Origin: Nitrosospira sp. Nsp2
GTDB taxonomy: Bacteria; Pseudomonadota; Gammaproteobacteria; Burkholderiales; Nitrosomonadaceae
Reading direction: 5' to 3'
DNA: 64,000 nucleotides
Assembly (NCBI RefSeq): GCF_003050965.1
Contig: NZ_QAOU01000002.1
Span: 620,001 to 684,000 of the forward strand
The position numbers and the translations under genes are program-made. Below the pieces are notes generated by a model that saw only the letters and a list, made by a program, of their open reading frames with translations, was not told the origin of the DNA and did no database searches. Below, piece after piece: positions 41,576-48,642 of the stretch; position 1 is the first letter of the stretch; each line of letters opens with the position of its first letter.

Positions 41576-42595
41576 TTAAGGAACGTCTGAAAAGTTCTCA
41601 CGGGCGGGATGGACGCTATCCTGTGGACCAATCCAATCATTCAGCATAGCAAGGTCGTAAGACGAGCCGCTTTCTGCAAGCACCGCTCCCAGTTCTTCAA
41701 GAGATACTCCCCTCCTCTTCAAAACACTTTTCTTGAGAAATGGGAATTTTAACTCCGTAATAAGAGGCTTCCATAGATGGAAAGTGGGTTCTATCCACCT
41801 CACTGGCCTTTGGTGATAATCAAATCGAGCCAGAACTGTTTCTAGCCCATAAAGCGCTGACAGGCGGAATCGGGCACCAAGAAGGCGCGAAAAACCGACC
41901 TCGTATTTCCGGATAATGGCAATCTTGAGTTCAAGTGTGTCCACCTCGCGAAAGAATCGGACGAATTCTTCAGACAAGATGACGTTTTTTTTACAGTAAA
42001 TAAAATAGGACTGAAGATGTGGATGAAAATGGAATGACTCGGTCATTCCAACAACATCAGCCTCGCAGCGAGCGAACCGCGCAATGATGTCGCGGATGCT
42101 GAAAAGCGGACCAAGAACACTGTCATTAGCCAGCAACAGACCCGAGTGATACCTGTACTCGGCATATTTTTCCAGCCCCGTCTTCCATCCGTAAAAATCG
42201 TATCCCTTATTCTCCCGGTTCATAATTCTTATGCAACATCGCGACAATTTTTCCATGTCAGTGTCGCGGATGGCATCACTCGAACTGATGAACACGATAT
42301 TGAAACCGGCGAGCGCGAGTTCATCAAGATATTGGTATACGTTCTCTCTGACGACCCCTTCAGAATCGTAGCTGCAAAATAAACACACGGGTTTATTGTA
42401 GTCGGGGGATATCGATCCTTCTCCATAAAACCTGACCAGAGGTATCGCTCGCGTACCATTTCTTGCAAGCAAGTGAAAGGCTACATCGCGAAGATACTGG
42501 AGGTCCCTGAATATGGCCTTGAGCTGCCACTTTATCGGCCAGTTTGGGGGCCACAGCGACGGCAACTTGGCAGGCGGTTGGGGAGATACTTTCAT
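41576..42595 (-). CDS. RgpF-like rhamnan/glycan synthesis protein
   Basis: A 339-residue protein whose residues about 65-330 match the rhamnan-synthesis-F domain. Features: [52 protein letters not shown] and [11 protein letters not shown]. Such proteins are glycosyltransferases or accessory factors in rhamnose-containing surface polysaccharide synthesis. The first 40 residues (Pro/Trp-rich) are unfamiliar. The ATG overlaps the atpA stop as ATGA, so this gene is coupled to the end of the N-ATPase operon, in the place where atpG would be expected. Confidence 0.82.
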
Positions 42596-44196
42596 CGGCC
42601 GGGGCCAGTATTGAAATAATCGAGAACGTCCTTCTTTCGGTTCCAGCTTCCGTCGTCCACCGATACCGTGGCTCTGAAACTGTCAATTGCCGCATGGGCA
42701 ACTCGCAGTATCGCGTCCCGGTCTTCATCACCGAGATTTTCTGCGCACCCGATGCGCGTCCGGAACTCATCGGGCATGTCCGCCACTGCTTTCGTCAACA
42801 CCAACTCGGCGTCTGCCAACCGGTCCAGTGGTACATTCTCGAAGAGTCTCGCGCCAAGCGCGAGCAGCAGAACCACTTGTTCAGTCACGGAGACGGGTGC
42901 GGATTCCGGTTGCTTGAGGCACCCACGGATCCGGCGACCATGTTCTATGATCGCGCGCGTATCCTCCTCAAGTCGGGCGCCAAACCGGGCGAAAGTCTCC
43001 AGTTCTTCGAATTGAGCATAATCCAGCTTCAGATCGCCCGTCGCCGCACGGTAAACCGCGCGTTGTGCCTGCCCTCCGACCCGAGAAACGGATTTCCCCA
43101 CGTCAACTGCTGGCAATACGCCCAATTCAAACAACGTCGGCGAAAGGTAGATTTGGCCATCAGTGATGGAAATCAGGTTGGTCGGAATATATGCGGAAAT
43201 ATCCTGAGCTTCTGTCTCAACAATTGGCAGCGCGGTTAGTGAGCCGCCACCGAGTTCTCCGCGCAGGTGGGTTGCCCGCTCCAGCAGTCGCGAGTGGATA
43301 TAAAAGATATCTCCAGGGTAAGCTTCGCGCCCTGGCGGGCGACGCAGGAGAAGCGACAATTCTCGATACGCTCGCGCGTGATGCGTGAGATCATCATACA
43401 CGATCAGGACATCGCGGCCCTGTCCCATAAAATACTCGGCGATGCTGGTCGCAGCATAGGGCGCAATATAGGCGAGCCCGGGCGGATCGTTACCCTCCGT
43501 CACGACCACCACCGTATATCTCATCGCGCCGTTTTCCCGCAGGGTCGCAATCACCTTCGCCACGCCGGCAGCGCGTTGCCCGATAGCGCAATAAACGCAC
43601 AGGACATCCTCGTCTTTCTGATTGAGTATTGTATCCACTGCGATCGCAGTCTTACCGGTCTGGCGATCACCTAAAATCAGCTCGCGCTGGCCGCGTCCGA
43701 TGGGAATGAGCGCATCGATGACCTTGATACCGGTTTGAAGGGGCACGGTTACAGGCGCCCGATCCATAATGCACGGAGCAGCACGTTCAATCGGCAGACG
43801 CGTAGTGGAAGCCACCACCCCTCTTCCATCCCTGGGGCGGCCCAACGGGTCGACTACCCGTCCCATCATTGCCTCGCCCACCGGCACATCCATCACATGT
43901 CCCCTGCGTTGCACCTCATCCCCGGTATGCAGGTGAAAGTACTCATCCAGCAGAACCACGCCAATTTCATCTTCTTCGATATTAAAAGCTATACCGTAAG
44001 AGCCGTCGGCAAACCGCAATACCTCCTCGAATCCAATGCCGGGAAGACCGGAAACTTTCGCAATGCCGGAAGCTAGACTCGTGATGGTTCCGAATTCGCG
44101 CAAGGCTAACCGCGGCGTCCAGACTGCCCGTGCCCGATCGAGCTGTGCCAATGCACTATCGAAGATGTCTTCGAGACCTTTATTGACGACACTCAT
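42592..44196 (-). CDS. atpA: N-ATPase (alternate F1Fo) subunit alpha
   Basis: A 534-residue non-catalytic alpha subunit. Walker A is GDRQTGKT (176-183). [24 protein letters not shown]-like [11 protein letters not shown] and the [14 protein letters not shown] segment are conserved. The sequence is clearly of the alternate type, with an N-terminus [21 protein letters not shown]. The start overlaps atpF by 17 bp. The C-terminal 30 residues ([21 protein letters not shown]) look unusual and may mark a recombination junction, since atpG should follow but does not. Confidence 0.94.
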
Positions 44197-45034
44197 CAGT
44201 TAATGGGCAATCAGGTTGTGTTTCAGATTCAGGCTGGAGTTCATGTTCGGCCGCAGCCCGGTTTTTCCAAAGCCGCTCTACTTCTCTTTCAAGGGACGAG
44301 AGGTAGTCGGCGATAGTCCACGCCAGTTTGTGTCCCTTAGCGATAAGCTCGATACCAGCGATCAGGCTTGGGTCCGTCATGAACCGGACCGGCTTATCGC
44401 CGAGCAGGTTTTCCTGAAGCACCTGCTCGATGTTTTCCTTTTGCTCAGGCGACAGAACAAACGTGCTGCGGATCACGCATTCCGGCGACGCAGCGGCCGT
44501 CGCGGCGGGCTCCGCCGCTAATGCCAGGACCAGCTGAGCCCGCTGGTCAGCGTTCAGCTCGCGCACGCGCTGAATGAATACATCCACAATAAGAGCTTCG
44601 AGAGTCGAGCTGGCGATATCGGATAACACCTTTCGGGTAGTGGCAAGTATTTCTGCGCAAGTTTTCTGCGCAAGGACGTCACTCAGACCTTGATAATCGC
44701 TGTTCCACGTCTCCTCCCATTTGGCGCGCCACTTCGCCGCATCCTCATGCGCGGCAGCCAGCAGCCGTTGGCGTTCGACCTGAGCCTCTTCCAGAGCTTT
44801 GCTCAAAAGCGCGGAACGCTGTTGCTCAAGTTCATGAGTCTTGCGTTGAAATTCGTCCCTTTCCTTGTCAGCCTCCAATTTTTTAGCACCCGCTTCCGCG
44901 AGCTCCGCGGCAATTCGCCTCTCACGCGCGTCAAGCGCATTGAGGACAGGGCGGTAAAAGAAACGCTTGAGCAACCATACCAGAACAAGAAAGTTGACCG
45001 TTTGCGCAATGACCGTAAACCAATCAATCAGCAC
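44180..45034 (-). CDS. atpF: N-ATPase subunit b with delta-like C-terminus
   Basis: A 284-residue stator protein. One N-terminal membrane helix ([22 protein letters not shown]) leads to a long Lys/Glu/Arg coiled coil (about residues 35-130). The C-terminal third ([21 protein letters not shown] ... [29 protein letters not shown]) resembles the C-terminal domain of the delta subunit. That explains the lack of a separate atpH in these operons. It starts at a GTG with GGGGAAG upstream, 3 bp after atpE stops. Confidence 0.92.
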
Positions 45035-47200: not shown

Positions 47201-47238
47201 CTATTCTCCGCAACTGCTCCGAAATGGTTGCACAAACC

Positions 47239-48642
47239 CTACTGCAACTGGGGATCCGCTTTTTTCACCTCGTCTATCCTCCCGATCATGTACAACGCCC
47301 GCTCTGGAACGTCCTGGAATTCGTCGCCCAGGATACGCTCGCAACCCTCAAGCGCGTCCTTGAGGCCGACCAGCTTTCCCTTGATGCCGGTAAACCGTTC
47401 GGTGGTAAAAAATGGCTGCGTAAGAAAACGCTCCAGCCGACGGGCACGGGCCACCACCTTGCGGTCTTCGAGCGATAACTGCTCAAGCCCAAGCATGGCA
47501 ATGATGTCCTTGAGTTCCGCGTACTGTGCGAGTGTGCGCCGGATCTCCTGTGCAATCCCATAATGCCGCCGACCGATAATGCCCGGGGTAGCCATTTTAG
47601 AACTGGACTTCAATGGATCGATAGCCGGATAAAACCCCTCGCTCGCGCGTTTACGCGAAAGCACGATTGAAGCCGAAAGGTGAGAAAATGTGTGTACTGC
47701 AGCCGGGTCGGTAAAGTCATCTGCAGGCACATACACGGCTTGAATCGAGGTGATCGCACCGGTATCGGTACTTGCAATACGTTCTTCCAGCTGGGCGAGT
47801 TCTGTGCTCATGGTTGGCTGATATCCCATCCGCGACGGCATCTGTCCCATCAACCCGGAAACCTCCATTCCCGCCTGGATAAACCGGAAAATATTATCCA
47901 CCAACAGCAATACATCCCGGTGCTCGTCATCCCGAAAATACTCGGCCATTGTGAGTGCCGCATGGGCAACCCGAAACCGGGCGCCCGGCGGTTCATTCAT
48001 CTGTCCGAATACCATTACCATGCTTTGCAGTACGCCGGCAGCCACCACGTCCCGGTAAAGTTCCTCGCCCTCCCGGCAGCGTTCGCCTATACCGCAGAAA
48101 ATGCTGACGCCTTGATGCTTTCCAGCCACGTTGTGGATCATTTCAGTGAGTAATATTGTCTTACCCACGCCGGCTCCGCCGAGAAGGCCGGCTTTCCCGC
48201 CACGTTCCAGCGGCATAAGCACATCAATGGCCTTGATACCGGTCTCAAAGATCTCCGCTTTTGCTGACCTCCGTACCAGGGGAGGCGGTGCATGATGCGC
48301 AGAACGCCACCGGATCCCTACCGGGGGGGGATGACGGTCAATCGCGTTACCGAAGACGTCAAACATGCGCGACAGCGTGGCGCTGCCTACCGGCACCATG
48401 AGCGGCCCATGCGTATCTGTCACCGGCATGCCCCTGGCCAGACCCTGCGTGGCTGTCAGTGCTATGCCCCGAACGCAATGTTCGTCGAGCTGGGATAAGA
48501 TTTCGATAACGATCGTATCCTGCTTGCCGGCGCGCAGTAACGAGTGAATGGGTGGAACGCGGCTTCCAAACCGGACATCCACAATACCGCCGCGTACTGA
48601 GACAACCGAACCACATTGCGCGTAAGCAGGTGCATTATCCAT
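47239..48642 (-). CDS. atpD: N-ATPase subunit beta (catalytic)
   Basis: A 467-residue catalytic subunit. The P-loop is GGAGVGKT (155-162). The catalytic Glu region [11 protein letters not shown], Walker [19 protein letters not shown], the [15 protein letters not shown] hinge and [12 protein letters not shown] are intact. It is about 467 residues, like other alternate beta subunits. It is the first gene of the operon, giving order D-C-Q-R-B-E-F-A. The SD before the ATG is weak. The catalytic machinery looks functional, so the loss of gamma is not accompanied by obvious decay here. Confidence 0.95.

Follow-up and report, generated by a model that had tools for sequence, protein, structure and literature searches.

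The window analysed here, a stretch of 64,000 nucleotides from the ammonia oxidizer Nitrosospira sp. Nsp2 (genome G000, contig C2, positions 620001-684000; assembly of 3.46 Mb in 21 contigs, 99.96% complete), carries on its minus strand, at 42592-48642, a block of N-type ATPase genes in the order atpD-C-Q-R-B-E-F-A. All eight genes are intact, follow the N-ATPase order and lie where an earlier note on this DNA had placed them; the ninth gene of such enzymes, atpG for the gamma subunit, is found elsewhere in the genome. In profile searches each of the eight subunits scores above the cut-off of its own best NCBIfam model. For D, C, B, E, F and A these models are named 'alternate F1F0 ATPase', and Q and R are assigned to TIGR02230 and TIGR03165. 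The block and the gene that follows it consist of:

47239..48642, minus strand: atpD, N-type beta, 467 amino acids (TIGR03305, 855 bits, cut-off 752)
46811..47200, minus strand: atpC, N-type epsilon, 129 amino acids (TIGR03166, 147.6 bits, cut-off 100.1)
46459..46833, minus strand: atpQ, AtpI-like small membrane protein, 124 amino acids (TIGR02230, 127.7 bits, cut-off 46.7)
46116..46637, minus strand: atpR (TIGR03165, 70.8 bits, cut-off 55.5; PF12966), with its real start probably at MSEVTG, about 46466
45458..46126, minus strand: atpB, subunit a, 222 amino acids (TIGR03306, 376.8 bits, cut-off 302.1)
45038..45340, minus strand: atpE, subunit c (TIGR03322, 153.8 bits, cut-off 130.85)
44180..45034, minus strand: atpF, subunit b with a delta/OSCP-like C-terminal part, 284 amino acids (TIGR03321, 293.1 bits, cut-off 224.7)
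42592..44196, minus strand: atpA, N-type alpha, 534 amino acids (TIGR03324, 868.8 bits, cut-off 750.5)
41576..42595, minus strand: rgpF-like gene, a resident of the site (PF05045, 84.6 bits; synteny)

The genes were described as tightly overlapping throughout. Overlaps do exist, but D and C are 38 bases apart and B and E 117. The 4-base ATGA overlap between the end of atpA at 42592 and the start of the RgpF-like open reading frame (ORF) at 42595 is as reported and is unique to this genome. G052 and G014 have 1-base overlaps at the same place, and the other four genomes with this arrangement have gaps of 42-207 bases. AtpF matches OSCP weakly (PF00213, 24.1 bits, cut-off 22.3) and no sizeable further ORF that could be a separate delta gene lies between the block genes, as expected of N-ATPases, in which delta is absent or fused to b.

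Searching the entire assembly with PF00231 (E-value up to 10) returned two matches, both outside the window, in agreement with the claim that the window has no gamma ORF. One is the housekeeping gamma on contig C4 and the other, at C2:136757-137653, belongs to an intact alternate-type gamma gene at C2:136745-137689, 315 amino acids long from its ATG. Its product scores 378.5 bits with TIGR03323, the alternate gamma model (cut-off 282.35), covers the full profile and shares 26-29% identity with the housekeeping gamma (29% in a pairwise alignment). The gene lies directly 3′ of dapA (PF00701) and bamC (PF06804) and 5′ of a sodium:sulfate-symporter-type transporter gene (PF00939), 523,889 bases from the rgpF end of the block, and both loci are within one 762-kb contig. 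The alpha C-terminal domain was likewise found twice in the genome, once in the housekeeping alpha and once in the window. The assembly holds two alphas and two gammas, and the alternate gamma is single and unlinked. The earlier note had proposed a genome search for a second, alternate-type atpG, and among the outcomes it listed, gamma encoded elsewhere is the one borne out; the phylogeny of this gene, as set out below, matches that of the block, the very finding that the note had named as refuting its claim.

All nine subunits (D, C, Q, R, B, E, F, A and G) are thus present above their NCBIfam cut-offs beside a housekeeping atp operon on C4, N-ATPases being enzymes that accompany a housekeeping F- or A-ATPase. 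The genes do not form a single D-C-Q-R-B-E-F-A-G operon: D to A are in order and G lies 524 kb away. Because the gene set is complete, we count the enzyme as a split member of the N-ATPases. We are nearly certain that it is a complete enzyme with gamma encoded in trans, whichever part moved. It is also very probable that the eight-gene block left a site downstream of bamC while gamma stayed, giving a nine-gene ATPase at two loci. The ancestral operon atpDCQRBEFAG would have stood downstream of dapA-bamC until the D-to-A block left, in a common ancestor of seven or more of today's genomes in the genus, and settled between a DNA ligase gene and the resident rgpF, with gamma remaining behind bamC. 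Gamma would now be supplied in trans, its gene probably read through from dapA-bamC and equipped with its own ribosome-binding site, and would join the complex as usual to give an ordinary N-type ATPase, presumably a working pump.

The separation is shared. The second gamma was used to query 120 genomes of the family, and 28 had an N-type gamma (accepted at an E-value of about 1e-35 or better). The alpha model, applied to 39 of the 120 (all 23 genomes of the genus, 13 others with an N-type gamma and 3 more), detected N-type alpha in all 28, with the alpha of G066 below the model cut-off. Among the 23 genomes of the genus, 15 have both genes, eight have neither (one of these, G060, is only 80% complete) and none has one alone. 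Gamma adjoins atpA in eight of the 15 and is separated from it in seven. Across the family, 21 of the 28 genomes have gamma next to alpha, and the same seven have the two unlinked: G000, G052, G006, G014, G018, G048 and G058. A comparison with related Nitrosospira genomes, which had been suggested as a check, finds the split in six more genomes, all with the block 5′ of rgpF; among them is G052, which belongs to the same species and is assembled as one contig. In a class-wide sample, 13 of 369 genomes had an N-type gamma (E-value up to 1e-50), which adjoins alpha in all except the present genome. In a named collection of 80 gamma loci, kept from 116 relatives found, alpha ends within 1.5 kb upstream in 72, and one locus is cut by a contig edge with the alpha end visible. 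Of the remaining seven, five belong to Nitrosospira/Nitrosovibrio genomes from the split set, one lies on a short Methylococcaceae contig (L132) and one on an Opitutaceae contig (L137).

The two chromosomal sites could be compared with relatives. Around the block, the window contains:

51632..52255, minus strand: PEBP-family gene, left flank of the site (PF01161; synteny)
48937..50586, minus strand: ATP-dependent DNA ligase gene, adjoining the block on the left (PF01068; synteny with G040)
48699..48704, minus strand: -10-like TATACT, 62 bases 5′ of the atpD start codon (by eye, consensus resemblance only)
40597..41364, minus strand: FkbM-type methyltransferase gene, right flank of the site (PF05050; synteny)

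On the gamma side, the order dapA-bamC-atpG is found in all seven split genomes. Two relatives carry a complete operon at this place, G040 as dapA-bamC-[1.1 kb]-atpD...atpG and G010 as bamC-[2.8 kb]-atpD...atpG. Ten further bamC regions were fetched (G002, G050, G022, G046, G026, G038, G030, G034, G044 and G054). An inverted OsmC-family gene is the next sizeable gene after bamC in the first six of these, overlapped by a short ORF in G002; the last four have other genes there. Six of the seven split genomes also have the OsmC-family gene, 3′ of gamma. On the block side, the rgpF site is free of ATPase genes in all eight relatives fetched. Seven of them (G002, G050, G022, G026, G038, G046 and G010) have the order Hsp20-PEBP-rgpF-FkbM-ABC, and G040 has PEBP-exonuclease-ligase-rgpF with the ligase directly before rgpF. 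The rgpF gene is therefore a resident of the site, not a glycan gene that took the place of gamma as had been suggested. Three of these relatives (G022, G010, G040) have a complete linked operon of the same kind elsewhere and G050 has one of a more distant type, so the ATPase-free site is not merely due to loss of the enzyme. In the seven split genomes the block lies between the ligase gene and rgpF, or between PEBP and rgpF in G006 and G058, in which the ligase pair is lost. A search (tblastn) with gamma and seven block subunits, all but AtpQ, against 18 stretches from these sites gave three weak matches only (E-values 0.05-0.6). In G026 and G046 a short ligase-like ORF (roughly 60 residues, 57% identity; L191, L193) lies between the PEBP and rgpF genes, and the exonuclease-ligase pair was probably lost there. 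In G030 and G044 (L200, L202) rgpF is 2.6-3 kb downstream of bamC, i.e., the two sites of the split are neighbors in these genomes.

The two parts also share their history. Maximum likelihood trees of gamma and of the block (concatenated D, C, B, E, F and A proteins) were compared across 14 genomes of the genus. The divergent N-ATPase of G050 was left out of these topology tests and of the tree with two outgroup rows, as was the outgroup row G005. Gamma and block have the same best topology, with a likelihood difference of 0.0002 or less, and both reject the host tree of eight housekeeping ATP synthase genes (approximately unbiased test, p 0.0005 for gamma and 3e-41 for the block). Gamma and block distances correlate at r 0.926 (0.983 in the split set), with a partial r of 0.80 given the host, and none of 2000 permutations was as high. 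The seven split rows form one clade with support of 86/90 in a tree with two outgroup rows. A relic of a PLDc_2 gene upstream of atpD, common to G014 and G006, distant members of the split set (L072, L070; L070:4532-4972), fits a single split event. This relic was also considered as a hitch-hiker from the old site and was rejected, as none of the ORFs in the 22 loci compared matched it. Two other relatives, G022 and G050, have complete operons of different types in different places (L081, L087) and the other three members of their clade of five lack the enzyme, which suggests that these two operons were gained separately by horizontal transfer.

Expression of the separated gene can be discussed from its surroundings. 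The bamC-gamma spacer measures 54-211 bases among the split genomes, and in G000 it contains GGAGGT nine bases before the gamma ATG and no predicted terminator or promoter. Read-through from dapA-bamC is likely for gamma given the short spacers and the lack of a predicted promoter or terminator in G000. For the block, aligned by eye, five other split genomes also have an element like TATACT 5′ of atpD, G006 being the exception, and apart from G006 a similar -10-like element precedes atpD in split and linked operons alike. Placing gamma in the dapA-bamC envelope/lysine unit might have been adaptive, as a separate control point for the amount of N-ATPase assembled. If so, the other eight subunits would be under their own promoter and the supply of gamma would set the assembly level in these nitrifiers. 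We consider this improbable.

The split itself is held more firmly than the direction of the move. An origin at bamC is preferred, clearly, since by a hand count it requires fewer independent events. Several points weigh against this account. A complete operon at bamC is known from one sister pair only (G010/G040), and its position there could have arisen separately. Support for the split clade is moderate, with outgroup rows that hold only 40% of the columns, and a tree of alpha alone sets G006 among the linked rows, unsupported. Gamma distances correlate with the host as well (r 0.832, 0.882 in the split set; block-host 0.779). The host tree is a single locus with unresolved deep forks, the N-ATPase trees conflict with it, and transfer within the genus probably played a part. 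Evidence for co-transcription with bamC consists of the short spacers and the missing predicted promoter and terminator, the latter for G000 only. Finally, neither breakpoint has a convincing scar. Six bamC-gamma spacers (G052 left out), aligned locally with the 3′ ends of alpha from seven linked operons, reached p 0.35-0.93 relative to shuffles, and the alpha-rgpF spacers aligned with gamma reached p 0.17-0.76. When the bamC-gamma spacers were compared with seven bamC-downstream stretches, three of 42 comparisons reached an uncorrected p of 0.025-0.035, all from the near-identical spacers of G048 and G058. The earlier note took the unusual tail of alpha as suggesting a recombination junction. 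A breakpoint near the end of alpha does fit the synteny, but the C-terminal end differs in length and sequence among lineages (15 rows), linked operons included, and the tail was rejected as a junction mark.

The reverse possibility is that the operon stood at, or arrived whole at, the ligase-rgpF site and that gamma alone moved to bamC. Relocation of one gene is the smaller change, no scar fixes the direction, and the linked operons of the same kind other than those of G010 and G040 are not at bamC. In G010 the stretch between bamC and atpD holds a divergent member of the tyrosinase family (PF00264) together with a small ORF (L080:660-2832). Both are also upstream of atpD in G034 (L083) and G044 (L086), whose operons are away from bamC, and a relic of the tyrosinase-family gene is upstream of the operon in G040 (L085). 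Split loci gave no tblastn match to it at an E-value of 1e-4. The ancestral operon may have carried this tyrosinase-family neighbor, and as the neighbor occurs at operons away from bamC, our confidence in the direction of the move is lowered. A move of gamma alone is nonetheless unlikely, because the operons of G010 and G040 would have had to arrive independently at the same spot near bamC, and because the ligase-rgpF site is ATPase-free in every relative fetched, these two included.

With departure of the block from bamC retained as the preferred course, the state of the enzyme can be considered. A broken operon could signal a block that is dead or repurposed, with decay yet to come. This is very improbable, since all subunits are intact and above their cut-offs, are kept in seven genomes, and evolve under constraint. 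The ratio of nonsynonymous to synonymous substitution (dN/dS, Nei-Gojobori) is 0.14-0.31 for gamma across six split pairs and 0.15-0.20 across four linked ones, and 0.07-0.24 and 0.10-0.14, respectively, for alpha, with dS near saturation in distant pairs and very small in G000-G052, the source of the highest values. The genomes share the split, its genes are under ordinary purifying selection, and nothing points to relaxed constraint after the split. Moreover, both parts are missing from G002, which the host DNA tree places as sister to G000, G052 and G014 (95/94); this suggests, within the limits of the deep forks of that tree, that they were lost together in its lineage. Borrowing of the housekeeping gamma, with the second gamma serving something else, was another proposal of the earlier note. 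A housekeeping gamma exists and the second gamma lies away from the block, but this second gamma passes the N-type model, has the tree of the block and occurs in 15 of 15 genomes of the genus with N-type alpha and in none of the eight without, so that borrowing is barely credible. An assembly error at about 42590, conceivable in an assembly of 21 contigs, can be dismissed, as the block precedes rgpF in six other genomes, the one-contig G052 among them, and both loci are inside one contig.

Split ATPase loci, an N-type one included, are already known, and the Nitrosospira split is a well-resolved further case. The N-type ATPase of Burkholderia pseudomallei, with its c17 ring, is encoded by nine genes in one operon (PMC5376962). 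The present enzyme resembles it in having nine genes with beta and epsilon first and atpQ and atpR before subunit a, and in being a second enzyme beside a housekeeping F-ATPase; it differs in that gamma is 524 kb off, behind bamC. Koumandou and Kossida give the same N-ATPase order and one split N-ATPase locus, that of Nitrosococcus halophilus, described as 'split in half' (PMC4154653). That locus is likewise divided over two places, whereas in the present case gamma is the only gene set apart, the block includes atpR and the split is common to seven genomes of one genus. The same study reports F-type loci split between alpha and gamma in aquificae and Beggiatoa (PMC4154653). There, too, the alpha and gamma genes are non-adjacent and the complex is presumably assembled in trans, although those loci are of the housekeeping F-type, with several further splits in the same locus. 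The authors conclude that splits between any subunits are tolerated (PMC4154653). Among the titles and opening lines of abstracts listed by searches of the open-licence literature we found no report of a Nitrosospira or Nitrosovibrio N-ATPase or of a relocated atpG.

What looked like a rotary ATPase without a shaft is instead a case of operon fission in a multi-subunit machine in which both sites, shared descent and co-inheritance are visible. ProAD, as described, defines N-ATPases with fused b/delta by one cluster of fixed order and joins leftover clusters into sets where possible (PMC11738941). Annotation based on one cluster would label such split enzymes incomplete. Since linked and split forms occur in close relatives, the genus offers a natural test of whether the position of the gamma gene matters to a rotary ATPase.

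Subunit c (45038..45340) has a glutamate in each helix and the motif ES-M-xx-Y in the second. Of the Na+ ligand set, both glutamates, Ser and Tyr are there, with Met at the variable place. In I. tartaricus subunit c this place is occupied by Thr. The proton-specific ring of the B. pseudomallei N-ATPase has Glu30, Glu61, Thr62, Met63 and Tyr66 (PMC5376962), and the present subunit is similar, with a glutamate per helix and Met after a Glu-Thr/Ser pair. ProAD counts an enzyme with any missing Na+ residue as H+ (PMC11738941). Because of the resemblance to the proton-specific site, proton coupling is the better guess for this enzyme. The residue after Glu-Ser is Met in the split genomes except G006, Leu in seven linked genomes, Thr in G006 and Ser in G050, and ion specificity may differ within one genus.

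Outside the genus, three loci deserve mention. A metagenome-assembled genome (MAG) of Methylococcaceae has an N-type gamma without alpha upstream (L132:1516-2400, SCQD01000331.1), flanked on one side by an ORF that matches RTX repeats and on the other by a gene for dihydrouridine synthase; it is apparently an independent separation of alpha and gamma, seen on a 3.4-kb contig only. In an Opitutaceae MAG (L137:615-2117, JAUYAK010000025.1) a 500-amino acid FAD-binding, berberine-bridge-like gene lies between N-type alpha and gamma, and the C-terminus of that alpha looks altered. A genome of another genus (G064), outside the count of 28, has no N-type alpha and carries beside its housekeeping gamma a gamma-like piece of 78 residues (40% identity, in a frame of 131 amino acids), a possible relic.

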